A DNA stretch of 58,726 bases, taken from SAR86 cluster bacterium. Its GTDB lineage: Bacteria > Pseudomonadota > Gammaproteobacteria > Magnimaribacterales > Magnimaribacteraceae. Position 1 is the stretch's first letter. Every line of letters starts with the position of its first letter. The stretch is from the NCBI GenBank assembly GCA_016777005.1, contig JADHSF010000005.1:1-58726 (forward strand), in the 5' to 3' direction. The notes beneath the pieces were generated by a model. The model did no database searches. It was not told the origin of the DNA and was given only the letters and a program-made list of their open reading frames with translations. Shown here piece after piece: positions 45,763 through 58,726 of the stretch. A program made the position numbers and the translations under genes.

Positions 45763-48558
45763 ATGATGTTATCAACTAACGAAATCAGAAAGATTTATTT
45801 AGATTTTTTTCAAGAAAAAGGTCACACGTTGGTTGAAAGTGCATCTTTGGTACCCATTAATGATCCATCCCTTTTGTTTACCAATGCTGGTATGGTTCCA
45901 TTTAAGGACCTTTTATTGGGTATAGAAAAAAGAAGTTACACAAGGGCAGTGAGTTCTCAGCGATGTATTAGGGCTGGAGGAAAACATAACGATCTAGATA
46001 ATGTGGGTTACACAGCAAGACATCATACTCTTTTTGAAATGCTTGGAAATTTCAGTTTTGGTGACTATTTCAAAGAAGAAGCAATATTTTTTGCTTGGGA
46101 GTTATTGACCGAAAGATACAAAATCTCACCTGATAAGTTATGGATTACTGTTCATGAAGATGATGATGAATCTGAAGAAATATGGATTAAAAAAGTTGGG
46201 GTTGATCCATCTAGAGTATCCAGGCTAGATGATGAAGAAAACTTTTGGACAATGGGTGATACAGGTCCTTGTGGACCTTGCAGTGAAATTTATTATGATC
46301 ATGGAGACCATCTTGAAGGGGAACCTCCTTTGCCTGGAAATGAACCAGGTGATAGATTTATTGAGATCTGGAATCTGGTGTTTACCCAATTTGATAGAGA
46401 CAAAGACGGCTCTATGAGTCCTTTACCAAATCCTTGCGTCGATACAGGCATGGGTTTAGAAAGAATAGCGGCTGTTTTACAGAATGAACAAAATAATTTT
46501 GATACTGATATCTTTAAATCCATAGTTCTTGCTGCCGGAAAATTAACTAAGCATGAAGACCTTAAAAATCCTTCTCTAAGAGTTATTGCTGATCATATGA
46601 GAGCAGGTGCTTTTTTGATTGCTGATGGTGTCATACCTGCTAATGAGGGAAGAGGTTATGTGTTAAGAAGGATTATAAGACGTGCATTAAGGCATGCCTA
46701 TAAATTAGGAATGAAAGATCCCATTCTTTCTCAATTAGTACCTGTCTTGGAAGATCAAATGGGAGATGCCTACCCGCTACTCAGAAAAAATTCTGAAATT
46801 ATCAAAGCGAATCTGTCCAAAGAAGAAGAACAGTTCAGTTCTACTCTCGAACAAGGTATGCAACTTCTAGAGTCTGCTATAGAGGACCTTGAAGGAAATA
46901 CAATTCCCGGTGATGTAACTTTCAAGCTCTATGATACATATGGTTTTCCTGTGGATATGACAGCTGACTTTGCAAGAGAGAAAGGTCTGGTCGTAGATCT
47001 CGAGTTATACGATTCTTTAATGCTCGAGCAAAAAGAAAGAGCTAGGTCGTCTAGTAACTTTAGTTCACTTATTCCAGAATCACTTAATATTCAGGGTAAA
47101 ACAGAATTTGTAGGGTATGAATCTAACTCTCTAAGCTCTAACGTCGTTGAGATAATTTCAAATTCTGAAGAAAATAAAAAGGGTGAACTTTCAGAAGATC
47201 AAGAAGGTTTGATCTTGCTTAAAGAGACACCTTTTTATGCCGAGTCCGGAGGGCAGGTTGGCGATAGAGGCTTCATCAAATCTAATGAGTCTATTTTTGA
47301 AGTTTATGATACTCAAAAAAAAGGTGATCAATATCTTCATATAGGAATGGTTAAGTCAGGTTCCTTTAAGAACGATGATTCCGTAGAGGCTGAAATAGAC
47401 CAAGATCATAGAAATAGAATAAAGAGTAATCATAGCGCTACTCATTTACTTCACGCTGCCTTGAGGCAAACTCTTGGAGATCATGTTGAACAAAAAGGGT
47501 CATTAGTTGAAGAATCTCGTTTAAGATTCGATTTTGCCCATCACAGTGCAATAGACTCAGCAGAGTTGAATGCAATTGAAGACATAATTAATGAAGAGGT
47601 TGCTAAAGACATTGTATCCATAACTGAAGTTCTTCCTATAGGGGAAGCTATAGAAAAAGGAGCAATAGCCTTCTTTGGAGATAAATATGGAGAGAATGTA
47701 AGAGTGCTTAATATTGGAAATGGTTTCTCTGTTGAACTATGTGGTGGTACGCATGTAGAAAGAACTGGAGAAATAGGACTTATAAAAGTTATTTCTGAAT
47801 CAGGTATTTCTGCAGGTGTTAGAAGAATTGAAGCTGTCACTGGAGAAGGTGCTAATTTTCTTTTGGATGAATTAGAGCAGGATTTTTTATCAATCAGTAA
47901 TGAACTACTAGTCGAAGTCTTTGACTCTAGGGAAGGTTTAGAAGCACTGCTATATATTCGTTTTTTACAAGATGAAATAAATTCTTTTGCCGAATTGCTA
48001 AACTGTTCTGCAGACCAGGTATTAAAGAAAATAATTCAGATAAAAGATGAAAATTCTTCTTTGTCCAAGGAACTAAAAAAAGAACCATTTGAGTTTAAAA
48101 TTCATGAAAGTCCTTTAGAGGCAATTGAGCAAATATTAGACACTAATCAATCTCTTAAAAAGGATGTAAAAAAAGCTCAGTCAGAAGATGTGGGTGTCTC
48201 TGTTCGTGATCTCATGGATCAATCTCTTGAGGTAGAGGGATATAATCTAATCACAAGTACTTTTGAGGGGGTAGATTCTAAAGAGCTAAGAGAAATTGCT
48301 GATCGATTGAGAAATAACAGTCCAAATTCAATAATAGCCTTAATTTCGATATCTGAAGACAAGGTACCAGTGATAATTGCATGTTCTAAAGAAGTTGATG
48401 TAGACGCAAGAGAAGTCATGAAACATTTAATTAATCAATTAGGTGGTAGCGGAGGCGGAAGACCTGATTTTGCTCAAGGTGGAGTTGAGAATACCGATGA
48501 CATCGATATGGCCTTAAATTCTATAGCAGACTTAATTGTTTCTTTAAATAACCAGTAA
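45763..48558 (+). CDS. alaS: Alanyl-tRNA synthetase
   Basis: AlaS charges tRNA-Ala and clears mischarged tRNA. Catalytic motifs are seen in LVPINDPSLLFTNAGMVPFKD and the CGPCSEIYYDHGD loop. The editing site has HSATHLLHAALRQTLG and Cys660 in ELCGGTHVERTG. A C-Ala domain with GGSGGGRPDFAQGG ends the protein. At 931 residues it is about 55 longer than the E. coli enzyme (876); the extra length falls in the coiled region between the editing site and C-Ala. The start has two ATGs (MMLSTNEIRKIYLDFF); the exact one is unclear by one codon. Confidence 0.98.
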   Translation: MMLSTNEIRKIYLDFFQEKGHTLVESASLVPINDPSLLFTNAGMVPFKDLLLGIEKRSYTRAVSSQRCIRAGGKHNDLDNVGYTARHHTLFEMLGNFSFGDYFKEEAIFFAWELLTERYKISPDKLWITVHEDDDESEEIWIKKVGVDPSRVSRLDDEENFWTMGDTGPCGPCSEIYYDHGDHLEGEPPLPGNEPGDRFIEIWNLVFTQFDRDKDGSMSPLPNPCVDTGMGLERIAAVLQNEQNNFDTDIFKSIVLAAGKLTKHEDLKNPSLRVIADHMRAGAFLIADGVIPANEGRGYVLRRIIRRALRHAYKLGMKDPILSQLVPVLEDQMGDAYPLLRKNSEIIKANLSKEEEQFSSTLEQGMQLLESAIEDLEGNTIPGDVTFKLYDTYGFPVDMTADFAREKGLVVDLELYDSLMLEQKERARSSSNFSSLIPESLNIQGKTEFVGYESNSLSSNVVEIISNSEENKKGELSEDQEGLILLKETPFYAESGGQVGDRGFIKSNESIFEVYDTQKKGDQYLHIGMVKSGSFKNDDSVEAEIDQDHRNRIKSNHSATHLLHAALRQTLGDHVEQKGSLVEESRLRFDFAHHSAIDSAELNAIEDIINEEVAKDIVSITEVLPIGEAIEKGAIAFFGDKYGENVRVLNIGNGFSVELCGGTHVERTGEIGLIKVISESGISAGVRRIEAVTGEGANFLLDELEQDFLSISNELLVEVFDSREGLEALLYIRFLQDEINSFAELLNCSADQVLKKIIQIKDENSSLSKELKKEPFEFKIHESPLEAIEQILDTNQSLKKDVKKAQSEDVGVSVRDLMDQSLEVEGYNLITSTFEGVDSKELREIADRLRNNSPNSIIALISISEDKVPVIIACSKEVDVDAREVMKHLINQLGGSGGGRPDFAQGGVENTDDIDMALNSIADLIVSLNNQ

Positions 48559-48580
48559 TATAGAATACCAACCCTTTTTT

Positions 48581-49810
48581 ATGGGTAGATTAATAGTTAA
48601 AAAATTCGGAGGCACCTCAGTAGCCGATAGCGCTCGTATTGAGGCTGTTGCTGACAATGTCGAAGCCGAAATTCAAAAAGGTAATAAAGTTACTGTAGTT
48701 TTATCTGCAATGGGCAAAAGCACAGATGCTCTTATTGAACTAGCCAAAGAAATTAATCCTGAACCTGACCTTAGAGAATATGATGCTTTAGTTTCTACAG
48801 GTGAACAAATATCTGTGGCCTTATTAGCTATGGCTTTATTGAAACGAGGAATACAAGGGAAGTCCTATACCGCATATCAACTTGGTATTAAAACAAACTC
48901 AAGCCACAGCAGAGCGCGTATCTTAGATGTAGAGGTTAGTAAAATAACTGCAGAATTGGATAATGGCGTAGTGCCTGTTATTACTGGATTCCAGGGTATG
49001 AATGAATTAGGAGATATCACCACACTAGGAAGAGGGGGTTCAGATACAACAGGTGTTGCATTGGCCGTAGCTTTAAAAGCCGATGAATGCCAAATTTATA
49101 CAGATGTAGATGGGGTCTACACCACAGATCCTAGAGTTTGTCCTAAAGCCAGGCTATTGAAAGAAGTAAGTTTTGAAGAAATGCTAGAATTGTCTAGTTC
49201 AGGAGCTAAAGTGCTGCAATTAAGGGCAGTGGAATATGCGAGTAAATTTAATTTACCCCTTCGTGTCTTATCTAGTTTCAACAAAGGTGAAGGAACTTTA
49301 GTTCAAGAGGAGAAAAATATGATGGAAAGACCAATTGTCTCTGGAATCAGCAGTATTGATTCTGAAGCGAAATTAACTATGCGGGGTGTCCCAGATATTC
49401 CCGGAGTAGCAGCCAAGATTTTAAGCCCTATAAGCGAAGCTGGGATAGAAGTAGATGTCATTGTTCAAAACATCAGTGCTGAAAACAATACCGATTTTAC
49501 CTTTACGGTAGACAAAGCTGATGCAAAAAAAGCCGAAGCAATACTCCAAGAGGTATCAATTTCTCTAGAGGGAGGTTCCATAGAAGTAGATGATGATATT
49601 GCAAAAATAAGTATTGTTGGAAGAGGGATGAGAGCACACGCTGGAGTGGCTAGTAAGATGTTTCAGGCTCTTGCCAAAAGTGAAATCAATATTTCAATGA
49701 TCACCACTTCTGAAATCAAAATTTCAGTAGTCATTAAAAAATCAGAAATGGCTAATGCTGTATCTGCACTTCATGATGCTTTTGATTTAGATAAAGAGCT
49801 AGATTCTTAG
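48581..49810 (+). CDS. lysC: Aspartate kinase
   Basis: LysC phosphorylates aspartate, the entry to lysine, threonine and methionine. The kinase domain opens with LIVKKFGGTSVADSARI and has TTLGRGGSDTTGVALAVAL and YTDVDGVYTTDPR. Two carboxy-terminal ACT domains start near VPDIPGVAAKILSPISEAGI and IVGRGMRAHAGVASKMF, so feedback by lysine or threonine is expected. The 409-residue length is that of the Pseudomonas-type monofunctional enzyme. It lies 22 bases after alaS, the usual alaS-lysC order. Confidence 0.97.
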   Translation: MGRLIVKKFGGTSVADSARIEAVADNVEAEIQKGNKVTVVLSAMGKSTDALIELAKEINPEPDLREYDALVSTGEQISVALLAMALLKRGIQGKSYTAYQLGIKTNSSHSRARILDVEVSKITAELDNGVVPVITGFQGMNELGDITTLGRGGSDTTGVALAVALKADECQIYTDVDGVYTTDPRVCPKARLLKEVSFEEMLELSSSGAKVLQLRAVEYASKFNLPLRVLSSFNKGEGTLVQEEKNMMERPIVSGISSIDSEAKLTMRGVPDIPGVAAKILSPISEAGIEVDVIVQNISAENNTDFTFTVDKADAKKAEAILQEVSISLEGGSIEVDDDIAKISIVGRGMRAHAGVASKMFQALAKSEINISMITTSEIKISVVIKKSEMANAVSALHDAFDLDKELDS

Positions 49811-50184
49811 TGGATGCAATAATAGAGTTATTTGGACTCGAGCAAGGATTATTAAGAGGTTTCGTTTTTGGACTAGTACATGTCGGTATCCTGATCATTG
49901 GTTACTATTCTGGTTGGAGTATAAATCGATTATTGAAGAAAACTTCAAATGGACATGTGGCAGGTATAGTAGGTGCGGTCATAGCCCATATATTGGCTGA
50001 TCTTATTGCTTCATTACTTGATCCTACAATGAGATCTGCTGCCTTGGGCATTATGTTGGGAGGCTTGCTGCCTTTACTTTTTATTCCCTTATTAGAAAAA
50101 TATATCGTTAAAAGTGATTCTCATATCATGGTTGGTGATCATGAAGATATTGAAAAAGACCTTAAATCGCATAAACACAATTAA
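49810..50184 (+). CDS. Small membrane protein with a histidine-bearing tail, unknown function
   Basis: This 124-residue protein starts at a GTG sharing one base with the lysC stop. Hydrophobic segments are GLLRGFVFGLVHVGILIIGYYSG, AGIVGAVIAHILADLIASLL and AALGIMLGGLLPLLFIPLLEKY, so about three membrane helices. The tail SDSHIMVGDHEDIEKDLKSHKHN has four histidines and several acidic residues and would be able to bind metal, but that is a guess. I do not recognise the family. csrA, which often follows lysC in gammaproteobacteria, is not here. Confidence 0.7.
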   Translation: MDAIIELFGLEQGLLRGFVFGLVHVGILIIGYYSGWSINRLLKKTSNGHVAGIVGAVIAHILADLIASLLDPTMRSAALGIMLGGLLPLLFIPLLEKYIVKSDSHIMVGDHEDIEKDLKSHKHN

Positions 50185-50224
50185 CCTTCAATCTCCTTAA
50201 TAAAAATATTAGGTCAAAATAGTT

Positions 50225-50283
50225 GCATTTGAGAATCATTCTCATCTATAATGAGAATCATTATCGCTCTAATAATCATTCTC
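50225..50283. promoter_or_regulatory. Three overlapping Fur boxes before the siderophore receptor
   Basis: The central site, 50247-50265, matches the 19-base Fur consensus at 17 positions. The left site contains TGAGAATCATTCTCA (50230-50244), a perfect palindrome around its middle base. The right one, 50265-50283, contains AATAATCATTCTC. All lie 50-110 bases upstream of the receptor gene, so tight iron repression is expected. Confidence 0.93.
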
Positions 50284-50335: not shown

Positions 50336-52408
50336 ATGTTTAAGATTACAAAAGCTTTAAGCAAGGCTTTGTTAGTTTATTCAATTGCTATAGCTGCAAA
50401 CTTATCAGCTGACGAAGCAGTCGATGAGGTGGTAGTAAAAGGTAAAGTGCTTTACTCAGATCAAGTAAAGGCGCTTAAAACACCAATAGCGATTATCGAT
50501 GTACCTCAGAGTTTATCAATCATTACAGATGAAGATATCCGTAAGCAAGGCATAAGAGAAATAGGGGATATAGTTCGTTATACTCCTGGAGTAAATACTT
50601 CTCAAGGAGAGGGTCATAGAGACTCAGTTGTTTTTAGAGGTGTCAGATCAACCGCAGATTTTTATCAAGATGGAAATAGAGACGATGTTCAGTACTTTCG
50701 TTCTTTATACAACGTAGATCAAGTTGAAATTTTAAGAGGACCTAACGCACTTCTTTTTGGAAGGGGAGGAACTGGTGGAATTATCAATCGTGTTACCAAG
50801 AAAGCACAAATTGGTGAAACATTTGGATCTTTTGATATAGGTGCTGATGACTTTGGTGCATTTGATTTTGCAGCTGATTACAATACCTCTACTGGTGATA
50901 ACACTGCACTACGTCTGAACCTACATAATGATTCACTAGAAAATCACAGAGATATGTATGACGGAGATCGCACTGGCTTTAATCCAACAGTAAAAATTCA
51001 AATGAGCGATAGAACGACTTTAGATCTATCTTATGAATATGCAGATCATGAAAGGTTCATCGACAGAGGAATACCTACTGCCAATGGTAAGCCTGTTGAA
51101 GCTTTAAAAGATGTTGTTTTCGGAACTTCTGATATCAATGTAACAACTCTAGAAGCAGATATTTTTAGAGGAATTCTTACAACAGACTTCTCAAATACTT
51201 CTAAAGGTATCTTCTCAATCACTTCTAGCGAGTTTGAGAAGCTATACCAAAATTTGTATGCATCTGGATACGATCTTGATACCAATGTAGTGACTTTGGA
51301 TGGATACAGAGATCCTACAGAACGTGAAAACTTAATTATTTCTGCCAATTTAGTCAACGAACTTCAAATTGGAGGAGCAACTCATACTCTTTTGATTGGA
51401 GCAGAAATTGTTGATACAGATAATCAGAATGAAAGATTTGATACATATTGGTCAACTTCTGAAAAGGATAAAGAATCTTTTAACGTTTCAAGGCCTTTGA
51501 ATATCGCAACTAACTCAGCGGGAGTTGCAACCGGAGTAGATTTCACAACTAAACTAAAAAGCAGAACGGCTTCTGATATTGAAGTTACTTCTGTATACAT
51601 ACAAGATCAAATAGATTTATCTGATAAATGGGTTGTCCTTTTAGGTGGACGTTTAGATCAATTCGATATAACGGTTGATGATATCAAAGCAGGAACTTCA
51701 CAATCTAGAGAAGATGATGAATTTTCACCTAGAGCAGGAATAATATACAAGCCCGAAGATAACGTTTCTCTTTACCTAAGCTACAGCGAAAGTTTCTTAC
51801 CTAGATCAGGTGAGCAATACAAGAAACTCACGGCTGACTCAGCAGCTTTAGACCCAGATCTTTATGAGGGCACTGAAATAGGTGTTAATTGGGATATTAC
51901 TCCAGACTTAAGTCTAAGGGCGAGTTACTTTGATAGTGAGCAGACAATAGCTACAAGAGATGAATCGGGTGAAGGCGCAGAAGTTTTAGGACTTCAAGTT
52001 GATGGAATTGAGCTTGAAATAAAAGGTCAAGTCAGCGATCAACTATATGTGTCCTTCGGGTACAGCGATATGGATGGTGAAACTAGTTCAGGCGGAGAAC
52101 CAAGAGAGATTCCTGAAAATACCATGTCTCTTTGGACTGCTTATCAAGTAAATGATAGCTTTGGTTATGCTTTGGGTGTAACAAGACAAGGTGAATCAAA
52201 TATTAGTAATAATAAGCCTGGTTTGATACTGCCTGACTATACAAGAGTAGATTTTGCAGCTTTCTATGATGTTTCTGAAGACTTAACTGTTAGGTTGAAT
52301 ATAGAAAATATTACTGATGAAGTTTACTTCCCTCATTCGCACAGTACGCACCAAGCATCTGTTGGAGAAGAAGTTAACGCAAGACTTTCAATTACAAGAA
52401 GATTTTAA
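50336..52408 (+). CDS. TonB-dependent siderophore receptor
   Basis: An outer-membrane importer for ferric siderophores. It has a signal peptide (residues 1-25), a TonB box around DEVVVKG (30-36), a plug domain with TPIAIIDVPQSLSIITDEDI and VEILRGPNALLFGRGGTGGIINRVTKK, and a beta barrel ending in the phenylalanine of RLSITRRF. The plug sequence is of the siderophore type, near FhuA, FoxA or Fiu; the ligand cannot be told. Length is 690 residues. AAGGGAG is 7 bases ahead of the ATG. The three Fur boxes support iron regulation, and a hairpin terminator follows the stop. Confidence 0.96.
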   Translation: MFKITKALSKALLVYSIAIAANLSADEAVDEVVVKGKVLYSDQVKALKTPIAIIDVPQSLSIITDEDIRKQGIREIGDIVRYTPGVNTSQGEGHRDSVVFRGVRSTADFYQDGNRDDVQYFRSLYNVDQVEILRGPNALLFGRGGTGGIINRVTKKAQIGETFGSFDIGADDFGAFDFAADYNTSTGDNTALRLNLHNDSLENHRDMYDGDRTGFNPTVKIQMSDRTTLDLSYEYADHERFIDRGIPTANGKPVEALKDVVFGTSDINVTTLEADIFRGILTTDFSNTSKGIFSITSSEFEKLYQNLYASGYDLDTNVVTLDGYRDPTERENLIISANLVNELQIGGATHTLLIGAEIVDTDNQNERFDTYWSTSEKDKESFNVSRPLNIATNSAGVATGVDFTTKLKSRTASDIEVTSVYIQDQIDLSDKWVVLLGGRLDQFDITVDDIKAGTSQSREDDEFSPRAGIIYKPEDNVSLYLSYSESFLPRSGEQYKKLTADSAALDPDLYEGTEIGVNWDITPDLSLRASYFDSEQTIATRDESGEGAEVLGLQVDGIELEIKGQVSDQLYVSFGYSDMDGETSSGGEPREIPENTMSLWTAYQVNDSFGYALGVTRQGESNISNNKPGLILPDYTRVDFAAFYDVSEDLTVRLNIENITDEVYFPHSHSTHQASVGEEVNARLSITRRF

Positions 52409-52470
52409 TCTGAAGATAATTAGGAATAGTTTAGTGATGCTTAAAAAGATTAGCTGTTGCTAAAGCGCCC

Positions 52471-52504
52471 TAGAGTGAGTCCCAAGCGCAGTGGACTCAC
52501 TCTA
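52471..52504 (+). terminator. Hairpin after the siderophore receptor
   Basis: TAGAGTGAGTCC and GGACTCACTCTA form a perfect 12-bp stem with the 10-base loop CAAGCGCAGT, followed by TTTTAG. The short T run and long loop make it a moderate terminator, 62 bases after the receptor stop. Confidence 0.65.
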
Positions 52505-52514
52505 TTTTAGTCGG

Positions 52515-52546
52515 AATCCGTTACTGACTTAAAACATTAACGGATT
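52515..52546. repeat. Second inverted repeat in the receptor-hemH gap
   Basis: AATCCGTTA and TAACGGATT are perfect 9-base arms around a 14-base spacer. A third, imperfect pair overlaps its right end: TTAACCAACC near 52545 and GGTTGATTAA near 52563. I do not recognise a known RNA family. Confidence 0.5.
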
Positions 52547-52575
52547 AACCAACCCTCCCCAATGGTTGATTAAGG

Positions 52576-52605
52576 AAGGGGTCTAGATACTTTTCTAGGC
52601 CCCTT
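52576..52605. terminator. Hairpin at the 3' end of hemH
   Basis: AAGGGGTCTAGA and TCTAGGCCCCTT pair over 12 positions with one T-G pair around TACTTT. On the plus strand it is followed by TCACTTTTCT; it touches the hemH stop. It could stop plus-strand transcripts before they enter hemH. Confidence 0.55.
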
Positions 52606-53604
52606 TCACTTTTCTGATAGACCAATTAAAAAATCTACCCAAGTATTGTCATCATTCAAACAAGGAATATAATTAAAAGAATCTCCCCCGGCTTCTAAAA
52701 AGGTTTCCCTTCCTCTTATGTTCATCTCTTCAAGAGTCTCAAGGTTATCTATAACAAAAGCGGGACATACAACGTCCAATCTTTTAACTCCCTTCTCAAC
52801 AAGCTTTACAAGTTCTTTATCTGTAAAAGGTTCAATCCATCCAGGGCCAATTCGAGATTGAAAAGAAATACCCCATTGATTATTGTCTAGCTGTAATTTA
52901 TTTGCGCACAACCTAGAGGTCTCGATAACCTGGGCCTTGTAACAATAAGGTTTTGCTTCAGACTCTATATCACAACAGTTTTGCACTTTTAGACAGTGAC
53001 TTTTTGTAGGATCAGTCTTGGTAAGATGCCTATTAGGAATACCGTGATAACTGAATAAAAGATAATCACTATTTTCTTGGCGATTTAAATCAATAGTCTG
53101 ACTTAAGCTTTCGATATAGCCTTCCTCTTTATAAAATGACTCTGCAAATATTAAGTTCAAATTTAAACTGAGTTCATGTTCTATTCGTTTAACTTCCTTT
53201 TCGGTAGTAAGAGTTGTCGACATGGCATAGTGGGGGTAAAGCGGAACTACAAAAACATCACAACAGCCCTTGTCCCTAAGATTAACCAATCCTTCTTCGA
53301 TACTTGGATACTGATATCTCATGGCAACTTCAAGAGGCACGCCAGATTTAGTGCTTATTTTTTCACCCAAACTAATAGTATTATTTATTAGTGGAGAGCC
53401 TTGATCTGTCCATATTTCTGAATAAGCTTCTCGCGTATTTTTATATCGTGAAGGAATAATTATCCAATTGACGAGTATTTGCTGAAGAAGTTTGGGGTAA
53501 TCTATCACTAGATCATCGGACAAGAACTCCTTTAAGTACTTTTTAATAGAGTCTAGCTCTAGATCTTTAGGAGAACCTAAGTTTATAAGAAGAATTCCTT
53601 TCAT
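52606..53604 (-). CDS. hemH: Ferrochelatase
   Basis: HemH inserts ferrous iron into protoporphyrin IX. The protein starts GILLINLGSP and has the catalytic histidine His187 in FSYHGIPNRH, then GISFQSRIGPGWIEPFT, DVVCPAFVIDNLETLEE and the GGDSFNYIPCLND region. It has 332 residues. Cysteines cluster after the active site (Cys204, Cys210, Cys211, Cys221, Cys233), unlike E. coli HemH; I recall such a cluster in Bacteroidetes-type enzymes. A TATAAT lies 7 bases before the ATG, and no Shine-Dalgarno is present. Confidence 0.96.
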   Translation of the reverse strand: MKGILLINLGSPKDLELDSIKKYLKEFLSDDLVIDYPKLLQQILVNWIIIPSRYKNTREAYSEIWTDQGSPLINNTISLGEKISTKSGVPLEVAMRYQYPSIEEGLVNLRDKGCCDVFVVPLYPHYAMSTTLTTEKEVKRIEHELSLNLNLIFAESFYKEEGYIESLSQTIDLNRQENSDYLLFSYHGIPNRHLTKTDPTKSHCLKVQNCCDIESEAKPYCYKAQVIETSRLCANKLQLDNNQWGISFQSRIGPGWIEPFTDKELVKLVEKGVKRLDVVCPAFVIDNLETLEEMNIRGRETFLEAGGDSFNYIPCLNDDNTWVDFLIGLSEK

Positions 53605-53611
53605 GGCATCA

Positions 53612-53617
53612 ATTATA
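53612..53617 (-). promoter_or_regulatory. -10 box right before hemH
   Basis: On the minus strand a perfect TATAAT lies 7 bases before the hemH ATG, so the transcript should start at or beside the start codon. The -35 is weak. No Fur box is seen. Confidence 0.42.
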
Positions 53618-53697
53618 AATTAACTTTGATATTGAAGAGTCTAATTTATCATTTACTTATGTAGTAAAATAAACCTTAACTTAAAGGATAAAAAATT

Positions 53698-54255
53698 TTG
53701 GACACTTTAAAAGCTATTCAAACTAGAAACTCTATTCCGCACTTAGAAGATCCTGCACCTTCCTCTGAGGAAATGTTTGAGGTATATAAAGGTGCATTAA
53801 GGGCCCCGGATCATGCACGGTTGAGACCATGGAAATTTATTGAAGTAAGAGGGGCTTCTAGAGAAAAACTCGCTAATGCTTTTCTTGAAACCGCACATTC
53901 CTTAAACAAAGATTTAAGTGAATCAGAGATTGAGAAATTAAAACAAGCTCCTTATCGTGCCCCGATGCTAATTATATTAGCTGCAGATATTAAAGATCAT
54001 CCTAAAGTCCCAAAAGTAGAGCAAATTATTTCAATGGGAGCGGCCGCTCAAAATATTTTGTTAGGCATACATGAAATAGGGTATTCGGCTGTATGGAGAA
54101 CTGGGCAGATGGCCTTTAACCCAGAAATAACTAAAGCTTTAGGTCTTGAAGCGAATTTTGAAGTCATTGGTTACCTCTACATAGGAACTTCTTCTGGAAA
54201 AGAAAAACCCATCCCCGAACTTGAATTAAATAATTACCTTGAAGTTTGGAATTAA
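53698..54255 (+). CDS. Nitroreductase family protein, YdjA-like
   Basis: This 185-residue flavoprotein resembles the small YdjA nitroreductases, FMN enzymes that act with NAD(P)H. The start TLKAIQTRNSIPHL, the FMN-binding ALRAPDHARLRPWKFIEV, and SMGAAAQNILLGIHEIGYSAVWRTG are the family marks. The start is TTG with AAAGGA upstream; the conserved region begins within ten residues, so there is no room for another start. The native substrate is unknown. It stands between hemH (divergent) and the tandem receptors. Confidence 0.9.
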   Translation: MDTLKAIQTRNSIPHLEDPAPSSEEMFEVYKGALRAPDHARLRPWKFIEVRGASREKLANAFLETAHSLNKDLSESEIEKLKQAPYRAPMLIILAADIKDHPKVPKVEQIISMGAAAQNILLGIHEIGYSAVWRTGQMAFNPEITKALGLEANFEVIGYLYIGTSSGKEKPIPELELNNYLEVWN

Positions 54256-54342
54256 CTTCTTTAAACATTCAAAAAAATAATAATTTGCTATACCTTTAAA
54301 GGAAGAAAAAAAGTAAAAAAAAGCTTCCATATAAGTTTTTTC

Positions 54343-54374
54343 TATAATAACGTTTTCTAGTTCATATAGAAAAC
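54343..54374 (+). promoter_or_regulatory. -10 box with an adjoining palindrome, before the first TonB receptor
   Basis: TATAAT at 54343-54348 is followed after three bases by GTTTTCTA (54352-54359) and TAGAAAAC (54367-54374), a perfect 8-base palindrome with a 7-base spacer. A repressor bound there would block transcription from this promoter. No Fur box occurs in this gap. Confidence 0.42.
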
Positions 54375-54418
54375 AAGGAAGTATTTATATGATTTAACTA
54401 TAAATTTAGGAGAAATTT

Positions 54419-56824
54419 ATGTTTAGATTATTTTTAATTATTTCACTACTTTCATTTCCATTTCTTTCTATTACCGCCGATGAGCAAGCCAATGTGTTTG
54501 ATGAGGTCGTAGTAACAGCTAGACAAAGGGAAGAAACAGCACAATCAGTGCCCATTCCAATAACAGCTTTAGGCGGTGATCAGATAGAAGCAAGGAATAT
54601 AACTGAGCTTGCTGATATAGGTAAATTAACACCTAATATGAATTTTGAAGCTCAAGGCATCAACTCTACAGTAACTAATGTGTTCTTGAGAGGTATTGGC
54701 CAAACAAATTGGTCCGAGACACAAGATCCAAAAATAGGAATTTATATTGATGGTGTTTATTTAAGTCGTCCACAGGGTGGAATGGTTGATTTGATAGATG
54801 TTGAGCGTGTTGAGGTTCTTAGGGGGCCACAAGGCACTCTTTTTGGCAGAAATACCACTGCTGGATTAGTTCACATCATTACAAAAGCTCCAACAGATGA
54901 TTTTGAAGGATTTGTAAATCTAGGCATTGGAACAGAAGGTCACAGAGTATTGAGAGGAGTGGTTAATGTCCCTCTATCAGATAGGTTTTCTTCCAGATTT
55001 GCTGTGATGTCAAAAGAGACTAATGGTTTTATGAAGAATCAAATTACAGGAAATTATCAAGGTAATGAAGATTCTCAATCTATAAGAGCCTCTCTTCAAT
55101 ATTCAGGAGATGCTTACAACGCAAGATTTACATATGATCATTTTGAATCAGACGAGCTTGCAACTTTATCGAGTTGTCGTTTTATCAATCCAGAAAATGG
55201 TGCTCTAGCTACTGGGTTTGGTGCTGTTGCTTTTCTTGCAGGTACATATGCCACGATGGTTAAGAACTGTAACGAAACTAGTTATGGTCTAGGAAGAGAT
55301 AATAATCCTAATCAACAAGTAACCTCAGACACGGATTCTTTCACACTAACTCAAACCCTAGATCTTGAAATAGGTACTTTAACTATTATTTCTAATCATA
55401 GAGAAATTGAAAATTATAATGGTACTTGGGGTTGGGGTATGGGTTCGGGTAATTCTTCAACAACTACCACAACTAATTTATTAGATGTGATCAATAACCC
55501 TAGTGAAAATGATATAGACTCGCATGAGATTAGACTCACTGGAGATACAGGCAATCTATCTTGGACACTAGGAGCTTATATGTTTGAAGAAGATAGTTTT
55601 GGCTCTATAGATGTCCCAGTATTGAGCGGGTATACACCTCCATCAGCTGCTGATTGGCCAATGTATTACCTTGTCATCCCTGGAGTTTTAAATGTAGCTC
55701 AAACAGTCATGGGCACACAAATGTTTGGCTCTAGATCTCAATCAAATGACGTCACTAATTCAAATGAAGCTTTCTATGCAGAGGGAACCTATGCCTTCAA
55801 TGATCAAACAGATTTAACTATAGGCATGAGAAGGACTGAAGATGAGAGAGAATATTTAAGGATACAAAGTCTTATTGGGGGAGGTTTTGATCCTGCATAT
55901 GCTTGTCCAGGAAATATCGATGCTACTACTGGAGTAGCTAAGAGCGATCGTTGTTATCAAGAGATCGATTATAGTGAAACAACTTCAAGAGCTATTCTTA
56001 GTCATGCGTATAATGAAGATTTCCTAGTCTATGCTAGTTATAGTAAAGGCTATTCATCTGGTGGCTTTAACCAAGATGTAAGAATGAAACCTTTCTTACC
56101 TGAAGTATCTGATAATTATGAAGTGGGTTTTAAAAGTACTCTTAGAGATGGAACAGTGCGTTTAAATGCTACCTACTTTTCCACTATATATAAGAATCAG
56201 CAAATTACAGTTGGCAGAGTAATTGATGGCCAACCTACGGCAGATATTATTAATGCCGCAGAAGCAGATTTAAGTGGTTTAGAATTTGAATTAGCTGCTC
56301 AGTTAACGGATAACTTGGCATTAACAATGACTTATGGCCTGCTTGATGGGGAATATAATGACTTTAATGTAATTGACACGCTCTACGATCCTGCAACCTT
56401 TGTTTCAACAGATGTTTTAAGGGATTTGACATCAACTCCTTTTGGAGGCTCAGGAGATAATGGTAAAAGTAACACTTTTGATATTGGATTAATCCATGAC
56501 CAAACGTTATCAGATGGCACTTCCGTTACCAGTCAAGTTAGTTTAAATAAACAAGATAATGTCTGGGGAACTTTAGAGCATGTTCCTGGTTCAAATGCAC
56601 CGGGATACACTTTAGTAGACGGTAGAGTTGCAATAAGACTGCCTGATGGCGTTACAACCATCACGCTATGGGGAACTAATCTCACCGATAAAAGGTATAT
56701 TGCTAGTATGCTTTGGCAGGGTGGTGATGTGCCTGCTGGAGGCGTTGATCCATCTCTTGGTTTTTCTGCTGATTACTGGGGCCAACCAAGAAGATTTGGA
56801 ATAGAGTGGAGAAGAGATTTCTAA
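54419..56824 (+). CDS. TonB-dependent receptor, first of a tandem pair
   Basis: An 801-residue outer-membrane transporter. It has a signal peptide (about 1-20), a TonB box in FDEVVVTA (28-34), a plug with VPIPITALGGDQIEARNITELADI and VEVLRGPQGTLFGRNTTAGLVHIIT, and a barrel ending in FGIEWRRDF. The FGRNTTAG plug is the type common in receptors of marine Proteobacteria for diverse large substrates. A cysteine pair occurs in SSCRFINPENG and VKNCNET. AGGAGAAA precedes the ATG. No iron box is seen, so the ligand may not be a siderophore. A strong terminator follows. Confidence 0.95.
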   Translation: MFRLFLIISLLSFPFLSITADEQANVFDEVVVTARQREETAQSVPIPITALGGDQIEARNITELADIGKLTPNMNFEAQGINSTVTNVFLRGIGQTNWSETQDPKIGIYIDGVYLSRPQGGMVDLIDVERVEVLRGPQGTLFGRNTTAGLVHIITKAPTDDFEGFVNLGIGTEGHRVLRGVVNVPLSDRFSSRFAVMSKETNGFMKNQITGNYQGNEDSQSIRASLQYSGDAYNARFTYDHFESDELATLSSCRFINPENGALATGFGAVAFLAGTYATMVKNCNETSYGLGRDNNPNQQVTSDTDSFTLTQTLDLEIGTLTIISNHREIENYNGTWGWGMGSGNSSTTTTTNLLDVINNPSENDIDSHEIRLTGDTGNLSWTLGAYMFEEDSFGSIDVPVLSGYTPPSAADWPMYYLVIPGVLNVAQTVMGTQMFGSRSQSNDVTNSNEAFYAEGTYAFNDQTDLTIGMRRTEDEREYLRIQSLIGGGFDPAYACPGNIDATTGVAKSDRCYQEIDYSETTSRAILSHAYNEDFLVYASYSKGYSSGGFNQDVRMKPFLPEVSDNYEVGFKSTLRDGTVRLNATYFSTIYKNQQITVGRVIDGQPTADIINAAEADLSGLEFELAAQLTDNLALTMTYGLLDGEYNDFNVIDTLYDPATFVSTDVLRDLTSTPFGGSGDNGKSNTFDIGLIHDQTLSDGTSVTSQVSLNKQDNVWGTLEHVPGSNAPGYTLVDGRVAIRLPDGVTTITLWGTNLTDKRYIASMLWQGGDVPAGGVDPSLGFSADYWGQPRRFGIEWRRDF

Positions 56825-56840
56825 TTTTCTTTTCAAAAAA

Positions 56841-56868
56841 AAAGGGCTTGTTAATGAGCCCTTTTTTT
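56841..56868 (+). terminator. Rho-independent terminator after the first TonB receptor
   Basis: AAAGGGCT and AGCCCTTT form a GC-rich stem around TGTTAATG, followed by a T run, 17 bases after the stop. It separates the two paralogous receptor genes into different transcripts. Confidence 0.93.
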
Positions 56869-56984
56869 GTTTCTGAGGTTATAAATAAACCTTAACATTT
56901 CTTTACAAACACTATAAAGTGCTTTTAATTTTCCTAAAACCAGTGAGTTTTATGGAATTTTTGCATTTAACTAAGGAGAGTTTT

Positions 56985-58726
56985 ATGAATCTTAAATTAA
57001 CACTTTTGTGTTTATCACTTACATCCATTCCAACAATTTCTTATAGCGCCGATGAGGACGTATCTGTCTTTGATGAGATAATAATCACGGCACGTAAAAG
57101 AGCTGAATATTCACAAAGTGTTCCGATACCTATAAGTGCTTTAAACGAAGAGCAGCTAGAGATTAGGAATATTGTAGAGTTAACAGATATTGAAAAACTG
57201 GCTCCTAACCTCAGTATCCAGGCATCTGCAGTGAATAGTGGTGTTTTAGAAGTCTACATGAGAGGAATTGGCCAGGCTAACTGGGCAATTCCTCATGATC
57301 CGAAAATTGGTCTATACACAGACGGTGTTTATGCCGCCAGACCTCAAGGAGGATTGGTTGATTTGTATGATCTTCAGCGAGTTGAAGTTTTAAGAGGACC
57401 TCAAGGAACGCTATTTGGCAAGAATACAACTGCCGGATTGATAAACATAATTACAAACCAACCCACTCAGGACACTGAAGCTAAGATTAGATTAGGTGCT
57501 GGTTCTGACAGTCACCAACTGATTGAAGGAATGTTTAATACACCCCTAAGTGATTCTTTGGCATTTAGATTCTCTTTCTTAACGAAAGAAACCGATGGCC
57601 ATATGATCAATTCTATTACTGGAAACGATAGAGGAAATGAAGATACAACTTCTTTCAGGGCTCAGCTTAAATATGATGCAGATGCTTACACTGCAAATTT
57701 AGCATTTAGTAGATTCGATCAAGATGAAAGAGCTTCTTTAGGTTCTTGTCGATTCACTGGTCCTGAAAATGGTGCTCTTTCTGGAGGACTTGGGGCAGTA
57801 GCAAATATTTTTGGAATATATGATGCTTTAAAAGCAAATTGTAGATCAACAACAAAGGACGTTTCACTTGATACTTCTCCAAACGAAGGCAATACTGCTG
57901 AGAAAGACTCTATTACTTTATCTCAACTCTTTGAAACTCAAATTGGAACCATCGAATCCATCACTAATTATTCAGAGTTAGAAGCTTTTAGTGGTACTTG
58001 GGGTTGGGTAATGGGAAATGGACCTGGTGTTAATTTCTTAGAAATCCACGATGACACCATGAGTCATGAACAATGGTCACAAGAGTTAAGACTCTCAGGA
58101 TCAACAGAAAATATGGACTGGGTAGTAGGCCTATATGCATTTGAAGAGGATGGGGAAGCCGTTTTAGATGTTCCTCTTTTTAGAGGTGTTAATCCTTCAC
58201 CTTTACTGCCTCCTGCACTTGCAGCTGTAGCTTTACAAACTAAATTACTTGGAAGTGAACAGCAGGGTAGTATCACTAATATGCAAAACCAAGCTGTATT
58301 CTTTGAAGGTACTTACGGTCTAAGTGATAAATTAGATCTGACTATAGGTGCTAGATACACCGAAGACGAAAGAGAATATACAAGAAGCTCTAAGCTTTAC
58401 GAAGATGCGGCTGCTATTGGAATGCCAGGCACCTTCAATCTTTTCTATGCTTGTCCTGGTATGGTTACAAACGCCTTTGGCTTTGCTACATCAGACAGAT
58501 GTACAAGAACAGTTGAGTATAGCGAGACAACTCCAAGAGCGATTTTAAGTTACCAGCAAACAGATGATGTTCTTTTCTATGCTAGTTATAGTAAGGGATA
58601 TTCAAGTGGAGGTTTTAATGGTGACGTTGCAATGAGACGTTTCTTGCCTGAAACATCTGATAACTATGAATTTGGGATGAAGGGAGAATTTTTAGATAAC
58701 AGACTAAGAGTAAACGCTACTATGTT
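56985..58726 (+). CDS. TonB-dependent receptor, second of the tandem pair, 3'-truncated
   Basis: The frame runs open from the ATG to the window end, 580 codons, so the rest lies outside. AAGGAG is 7 bases ahead of the ATG. A signal peptide ends around YSADED, the TonB box is FDEIIITA, and the plug has VPIPISALNEEQLEIRNIVELTD and VEVLRGPQGTLFGKNTTAGLINIIT. Matching landmarks with the first receptor include GSCRFTGPENGAL, GTWGWVMGNG, VEYSETTPRAILSY and YASYSKGYSSGGFN. It is therefore a close paralogue, probably from a tandem duplication. The ligand is unknown. Confidence 0.95.
   Translation, partial: MNLKLTLLCLSLTSIPTISYSADEDVSVFDEIIITARKRAEYSQSVPIPISALNEEQLEIRNIVELTDIEKLAPNLSIQASAVNSGVLEVYMRGIGQANWAIPHDPKIGLYTDGVYAARPQGGLVDLYDLQRVEVLRGPQGTLFGKNTTAGLINIITNQPTQDTEAKIRLGAGSDSHQLIEGMFNTPLSDSLAFRFSFLTKETDGHMINSITGNDRGNEDTTSFRAQLKYDADAYTANLAFSRFDQDERASLGSCRFTGPENGALSGGLGAVANIFGIYDALKANCRSTTKDVSLDTSPNEGNTAEKDSITLSQLFETQIGTIESITNYSELEAFSGTWGWVMGNGPGVNFLEIHDDTMSHEQWSQELRLSGSTENMDWVVGLYAFEEDGEAVLDVPLFRGVNPSPLLPPALAAVALQTKLLGSEQQGSITNMQNQAVFFEGTYGLSDKLDLTIGARYTEDEREYTRSSKLYEDAAAIGMPGTFNLFYACPGMVTNAFGFATSDRCTRTVEYSETTPRAILSYQQTDDVLFYASYSKGYSSGGFNGDVAMRRFLPETSDNYEFGMKGEFLDNRLRVNATM

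Follow-up and report, generated by a model that had tools for sequence, protein, structure and literature searches.

A hairpin-rich gap between receptor B and hemH

What does a 197-nt gap between two convergent genes hold that makes it fold so strongly? The gap lies in a 58,726-nt stretch of DNA from a SAR86 cluster bacterium (hereafter the window), between the gene for a TonB-dependent receptor, which we call receptor B, and hemH, which encodes ferrochelatase and whose six closest relatives in named genomes (five labelled SAR86, one Gammaproteobacteria) are 77–97% identical. The features of the locus are:

50247-50265, + strand: Fur-box-like site TATAATGAGAATCATTATC upstream of receptor B, matching the Fur consensus at 17/19 positions
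50336-52408, + strand: receptor B, TonB-dependent, 690 aa, with TonB barrel and Plug domains
52409-52605: the gap, 197 nt, between receptor B (+) and hemH (−), convergent
52430-52464, + strand: hairpin P0, from the minimum-energy fold
52465-52530, + strand: former coding end (~22 codons) of another receptor, A, now non-coding, holding P1 and the 5′ half of P2
52471-52504, + strand: hairpin P1, perfect 12 bp, loop CAAGCGCAGT (repeat search, fold, covariation)
52509-52512 with 52526-52529, + strand: possible pseudoknot of AGTC with GACT in the P2 loop (covariation alignment)
52515-52546, + strand: hairpin P2, 9 bp (52515-52523/52538-52546), spanning the stop codon in receptor A mRNA
52545-52573, + strand: hairpin P3, imperfect, with the C-rich loop CCCUCCCC at 52553-52560, the most conserved loop
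52576-52605: hairpin P4, 12-nt arms (52576-52587/52594-52605) that are 92% complementary
52576-52615, + strand: predicted intrinsic terminator, P4 plus a U-rich tail (repeat search, fold, terminator scan)
52606-53604, − strand: hemH, whose stop codon adjoins P4

All four inverted repeats of the preliminary description were found again at the same positions, together with P0, which that description had missed; the repeat search also returned a distant complementary pair, 52462-52474/52594-52606. The plus strand of the gap folds far below its shuffles, at −66.5 kcal/mol compared with −43.6 (sd 4.0) for 200 dinucleotide shuffles (z = −5.67, 0/200), and the minus strand has a z-score of −4.94. The loop of P3 is unpaired in the unconstrained minimum-energy fold of the gap. 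When the 10 window gaps of ≥80 nt between ORFs of ≥70 aa were ranked with 60 shuffles each (a 481-nt gap being folded over its last 450 nt), this gap had the lowest z-score, −5.05, followed by a tRNA-bearing gap at −5.01, two gaps at −3.57 and −3.06, and six between −1.7 and −0.2. The earlier statement that the other gaps are nearly bare is thus accurate for six of the nine others and wrong for three, the tRNA gap among them.

The preliminary description also raised the possibility of stacked terminators that protect hemH. Only P4 bears this out, as the sole terminator-like site in the gap; P0–P3 do not, as the U-run that a stack would need after each hairpin follows P4 only, and the tail of P1 is U-rich just in the window and its closest relatives. 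No promoter was found within the gap, the nearest promoter-like site (9/12) beginning in the end of receptor B. Rfam returned nothing in the gap above the gathering cut-off, the highest-scoring match under lax thresholds reaching 18.7 bits where 90 were required, and phage records gave no match to it. A REP/BIME or mobile palindromic repeat, for which many copies are expected, was rejected on finding a single DNA match in genome G000.

Conservation and origin of the hairpins

As DNA, the gap is present in 17 of the 41 genomes searched, the window's own included. The best match lies beside hemH in all 17 and has receptor B on its other flank in 14. In nine relatives of the same genus (L005-L013) it is 78–81% identical over the aligned part (74–94% of the query), and hemH is 68–75% identical, with two of these hemH alignments short. 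Taking all 15 relatives, the similarity of the gap exceeds that of hemH in 13 and matches it in the two closest, although only 37–38% of the gap aligned in two of the comparisons (L014 and L016). The gap on the far side of hemH (53605-53697) gave no alignment in six of the nine genus relatives.

The preliminary description had proposed looking for compensatory changes in relatives, and these were found in P0, P1, P2 and P4. In an alignment of 15 sequences, 94.6% of the cells in P1–P4 are paired, two-sided changes occur in 18 of 42 pairs (four pseudoknot pairs being counted among the 42), and none of 500 shuffles reaches the covariation score; sliding the pairing partners abolishes the signal. 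P0 is 92.5% paired, with two-sided changes in 9 of 10 pairs. The measure of further pair types was matched by 5 (P1–P4) and 3 (P0) of 500 shuffles. The pairs of P3 and of AGTC/GACT hardly vary, show no two-sided change in the 15 aligned sequences, and are uninformative either way. GCGC-GCGC and AGTC-GACT pseudoknots are possible and the latter is nearly invariant, but neither is kept in G048 and G049, where P1 and P2 are rebuilt in different letters, both hairpins can still form and the P3 loop is kept. At E ≤ 0.001 a covariance model of P1–P4 found matches in 27 of the family's 35 genomes, including one weak match (G010) beside another receptor's terminator. In an order-wide search of 203 genomes with stricter filters, 26 matched at E ≤ 1e-4, all within the family (26/35, a count that includes the ends of intact receptor A genes), and none of the 168 others did.

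The model matches point to where the hairpins come from. In four genomes of sister genera (G044, G045, G047 and G050) the match covers the 3′ end and UTR of a TonB receptor gene, A, which is intact there and points towards hemH, and the intact homologues of the remnant are the last ~22 codons of this gene plus its 3′ UTR. Read in one frame, P1–P2 resembles a receptor end (APKNESRAQWARSNLVGICYRL* in L006, AQNGARAEMPRSIPVGIRYRL* in L017; receptor A of G001 ends in APKNGARAQQPRTFLVGIRYRL*), and the dead frame still reads VGI.Y, with A-like codons upstream. Translation into a small peptide was rejected: the A frame of the window contains stops, and the frame is shifted in L008, L009, L010 and L012. 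In G024, from a further genus, A likewise faces hemH and its UTR, which the covariance model does not reach, carries ACCCTCCCCA. Because A still faces hemH in the sister genera and in G024, A–hemH looks like the older arrangement.

Within the window's genus, of which 19 genomes were sampled and 16 hold the element, 13 (window included) combine receptor B with the dead A tail, as do three g4 genomes (G021, G048 and G049), and three (G001, G009 and G014) have full A plus the tail. In G010, G016 and G017 neither the tail at the locus nor hemH was found, and the locus is apparently not assembled. From these comparisons it is highly probable that the gap holds a selected, structured remnant of the 3′ end of a replaced receptor. 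An origin in another, since-replaced receptor gene could not have been revealed by the window's sequence by itself, which was all that the preliminary description had.

The exchange can be placed by comparison with the G001 contig. By blastn, the window is 91.7% identical to it over 47711-50265 and 92.6% identical over 52431-57000 (57000 being the end of the compared stretch), and between 50265 and 52431 the receptors are unrelated. The edges of the swap therefore coincide with the end of the Fur box on the left and the start of P0 on the right. In G001, G014 and G009 the gap follows receptor A instead of B, and from 52431 on it is 88–95% identical. As judged from the alignments of window and G001, promoter and RNA tail are constant and the receptor is exchanged. 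Receptor B is 81.5–83% identical between genera g1 and g4, where hemH is 58–67% identical; being more alike than hemH, the receptor appears to have moved between genera. Among published SAR86 genomes built from several single cells, some have been called chimeric (PMC11582366), and a genome here represented by a single contig, G005, is therefore not the sole support for any claim.

Several further observations concern the edges of the element. The end of receptor A in G001 (L002) matches P2 of the tail over 25 identical bases, and the same match occurs with two and three mismatches in G014 (L003) and G009 (L004); such identity suggests gene conversion involving the live copy and its dead counterpart. 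Two copies of GTTCTAA flank the place from which P0 and P1 have been lost in G007 (L014/L030), and the stop codon of B lies a few bases before P2 there. Because of this loss, P2–P4 may be the core. Another TonB receptor in the window (54419-56824) is 97.6% identical in G001 (L028) and 46.6% in G014 (L029), a contrast by which it may be a second receptor-swap spot.

The site upstream of receptor B bears on how the tail would be expressed. The window's match of 17/19 to the Fur consensus compares with a mean of 12 and a maximum of 15 in 500 single-base shuffles of the region. The best matches in relatives are 13–16/19 (in the 16 of 18 stretches where the start was found), and values of 13–15 overlap chance because the shuffles reach 15. 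The earlier suggestion of a small RNA from a Fur-controlled transcript agrees with the conserved, covarying structure 3′ of a gene with a 17/19 Fur box, and the transcript is predicted from it. The element lies 3′ of the coding sequence, on the same strand, with an intrinsic terminator at its end, as a transcript of this kind would require.

The P3 loop and its candidate targets

The loop of P3 holds CCUCCCC and thus contains CCUCC, the anti-Shine-Dalgarno core, complementary to the Shine-Dalgarno core. The stem of P3 differs between genera g1, g4 and g5 and the loop is constant as CUCC[C/U]C, in a cross-genus fold that held six loop bases unpaired and excluded the G024 row (another site had been picked there). 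The g5 loop is still CCCUCCCC, with a P4 that differs in sequence there but remains a terminator, and the bare motif is present in a fourth genus (G024). The receptor A 3′ UTR of G022 is without CCUCC. In the window, CCTCCCC is in mild excess (6 observed, 3 expected). Across the 19 genomes of the genus, 16 of 20 matches to the pattern CCCTCCCCAN{1,3}GG fall at this locus. Other CCTCCCCA sites (L168, L189-L191, L194, L195 and L216-L218) fall within coding sequence or on its opposite strand and were disregarded. A loop conserved in three genera and open in the window's fold provides an accessible seed, and conserved stems with one conserved loop are the pattern to be expected if a regulatory RNA acts through a seed.

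Two intergenic g5 stretches (L192 in G022 and L193 in G044, each at ~1501 on the minus strand) have a CUCCCCA loop within a more extended hairpin that ends in a U-run, and resemble free-standing small RNAs. The family-wide model search also gave a weak second match in G000, G001 and G014, which proved to be the 3′ UTR of another TonB receptor:

L180:2514-2670 (G000:C46): sibling hairpin with loop CCUCCCCAAAGG before a terminator, in the 3′ UTR of the second TonB receptor

Copies of this receptor in G001 and G018 have His/Asp-rich stretches. Among the 17 sibling loci listed (two further loci gave no end), five, from G000, G001, G014 and G018, have CCUCCCCAAAGG before the terminator, six (G002, G003, G004, G011 and G013) have CCCCAAAG, and six (G005, G008, G010, G015, G016 and G017) have only CUAAAGG, CUAGAGG or CCAAAGG, so that the sibling loop is decayed in six genomes of the genus.

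GGGGAGG, which complements the loop, is found repeatedly ahead of an ATG at the start of csrA and of two TonB receptor genes, T1 and T2. The ribosome site of T1 contains UUUGGGGAGG inside a small hairpin, and that of csrA is UGGGGAGGGUU. GGGGAGG in itself also makes a good ribosome site. In the 19 genomes, TTGGGGAGG before ATG occurs 55 times (six of these being the element's own complement and several lying inside coding sequence) compared with 4 for the reversed pattern; enrichment would be expected of any good ribosome site. The ranking of T1, T2 and csrA is circular, since they were chosen for their complementarity to the loop, and we put them forward as proposed trans targets.

T1 orthologues were fetched by protein, and 21 of 30 loci were examined, two of which gave no start. 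The ribosome site reads TTTGGGGAGG in 12/12 genus copies listed and TTTGGGGAG in 3/3 g4 copies listed. T1 also keeps its G-rich site in G010, G016 and G017, in which the RNA was not found and its locus is apparently unassembled, and in G022; in G041, where the covariance model finds no match, the site is TTTGGGGAG. Minimum-energy folding places the site in a hairpin in 11 of 12 genus copies and two of three g4 copies (G048 and G049). In this fold the site is closed by pairing of UUU with GAG, so the RNA would have to open it; an open loop engaged in a kissing-loop pairing was dropped as a model for the same reason. The conserved hairpin at the T1 start (L241-L252) has the outer stem GAAAC/GTTTC, or AAAAC/GTTTT in G048 and G049, and is itself a likely translational control element.

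In a cofold of P3–P4 of G011 with the T1 start of the same genome, P3 opens and 11 bases pair, at −45.8 kcal/mol compared with −26.3 and −11.2 for the two apart. Duplexes of the loop only with T1 reach −22.2 (G011, own T1), −23.8 (G045) and −17.5 kcal/mol (G048), and the best of 89 other start regions reaches −14.2 kcal/mol; with T1, T2 and csrA picked by the motif, these energies do not rank the candidates. The G045 loop favours its own T1 over those of other genera, whereas that of G048 does not. The native csrA site of G000 forms 11 contiguous pairs with the loop (−22.2 kcal/mol). In the csrA start region (L271, G000:C49), GGGGAGGGTTTATG is present in at least 14 genomes of the genus, and its identity as the start of csrA was confirmed for G004 and G000 only.

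Explanations for the retained tail

The explanation we prefer, to which we give an even chance, is that the receptor mRNA ends in a Fur-controlled, 3′-UTR-derived RNA with an anti-Shine-Dalgarno loop. The comparisons show that the body of A was replaced by B with the promoter and Fur box and the 3′ tail retained, and that selection on base-pairing and on the sequence of the P3 loop has since acted on the tail. Low iron would induce the receptor transcript, with its 3′ end at P4; the regulatory RNA would be released by processing near P0 or P2, or would be active as the intact mRNA 3′ end. By pairing with ribosome-binding sites rich in G, its P3 loop, CCUCCCC(AAA), would block the translation of other mRNAs in trans, with T1, T2 and csrA as the best candidates. 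The constant part of the locus would then be the RNA, not the protein gene above it. Since the tail was kept though the gene was swapped, the RNA probably has a job of its own. Counting against this explanation are the closed fold of the T1 site, the retention of that site in genomes where the RNA is absent or its locus unassembled, the loss of P0 and P1 in G007, the decay of the sibling loop, the lack of two-sided changes in P3 and the few shuffles that reach the measure of further pair types. Whether it acts in trans through the P3 loop we judge to be about evenly balanced.

A set of stabilising hairpins with one terminator, protecting the mRNA 3′ end and keeping antisense transcription out of hemH with no trans-acting RNA, would account for the terminator-like P4 on the plus strand, for the convergence of receptor and hemH, and for stems that outlast sequence change, P1 and P2 being wholly rebuilt in G048 and G049. 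It leaves unexplained, however, the letters of the P3 loop that stay unpaired and conserved across three genera (with the bare motif in G024) and the related loop in the second receptor's 3′ UTR, and the gap beyond hemH, unaligned in six of nine relatives, is without comparable conservation; we regard this account as rather doubtful. The tail of A might also survive as a neutral scar of homologous recombination, a crossover site or homology arm in receptor swaps. Swap boundaries at the Fur box and the start of P0, the similarity of B across genera with hemH at only 58–67%, and the 25 identical bases shared by the end of A and P2 in G001 all fit such a scar. Decay would be expected of it, yet four hairpins show compensatory changes, P3 exchanges the entire stem from one genus to another while its loop stays as it is, and relative to hemH the tail changes no faster in 13 of 15 relatives and equally in the other two. 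The covariation counts have already weakened this account, which we consider very unlikely.

We rate as equally improbable an element acting in cis, in which the P3 loop would pair with the terminator arm (GGGA/GGGG) or with the leader of the receptor and so tune termination or translation of the mRNA that carries it. By eye, the loop is complementary to the 5′ arm of P4, GGGA/GGGG, in both genus versions, and the ribosome site of B contains GGGAG; but only five bases of the B leader match by eye, the minimum-energy fold leaves the loop open, and the g5 loop is unchanged though P4 differs there.

Relative to known RNAs, the predicted transcript combines familiar parts in a different setting. 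RyhB and PrrF are iron-sparing small RNAs under Fur control and are expected under low iron, as the gap RNA would be. Unlike them, it has no Rfam match above the cut-off and is carried by a receptor gene, and receptors and csrA, not enzymes that use iron, are its predicted targets. A second likeness is to the 3′-UTR-derived CpxQ, NarS, SdhX and OppZ, which lie at the end of a regulated gene with an intrinsic terminator, have a short seed that is conserved while the rest of the sequence varies, and may act as the "noncoding arm" of a regulon (PMC9438474), a possibility shared with the gap RNA. It differs from these in that its parental gene was replaced while the RNA stayed, in including former coding sequence, and in its SAR86 host, where its expression is predicted. 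The alpha-r14/NfeR1 RNAs, as PMC10746234 describes them, carry CCUCCUCCC anti-Shine-Dalgarno motifs, and NfeR1 silences mRNAs at the translation start. They share with P3 a conserved CCUCC-type motif left unpaired on stems of changing sequence, but they have three hairpins, each with CCUCCUCCC, compared with one motif hairpin in the gap (PMC10746234; sequences compared via Rfam scans), and the gap element is a receptor 3′ end. We recognised no published description of this RNA in the literature searched, the sole basis for regarding it as not in print.

In a wider picture, which we hold to be improbable, the Fur-box promoter and the anti-Shine-Dalgarno 3′ RNA would form a fixed frame for outer-membrane receptors exchanged by recombination and, together with the sibling RNA and its related loop, would pair with G-rich ribosome sites, so that expression of one receptor lowers other TonB receptors and csrA. 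Receptor genes often double as phage entry points; if our preferred explanation is true, they would be swappable here without loss of the regulatory RNA. The locus would then be a clean natural experiment on whether an mRNA 3′ end can lead an independent life, the protein gene being exchanged and the RNA kept, and it would provide a post-transcriptional arm of iron control for these abundant, streamlined ocean bacteria.
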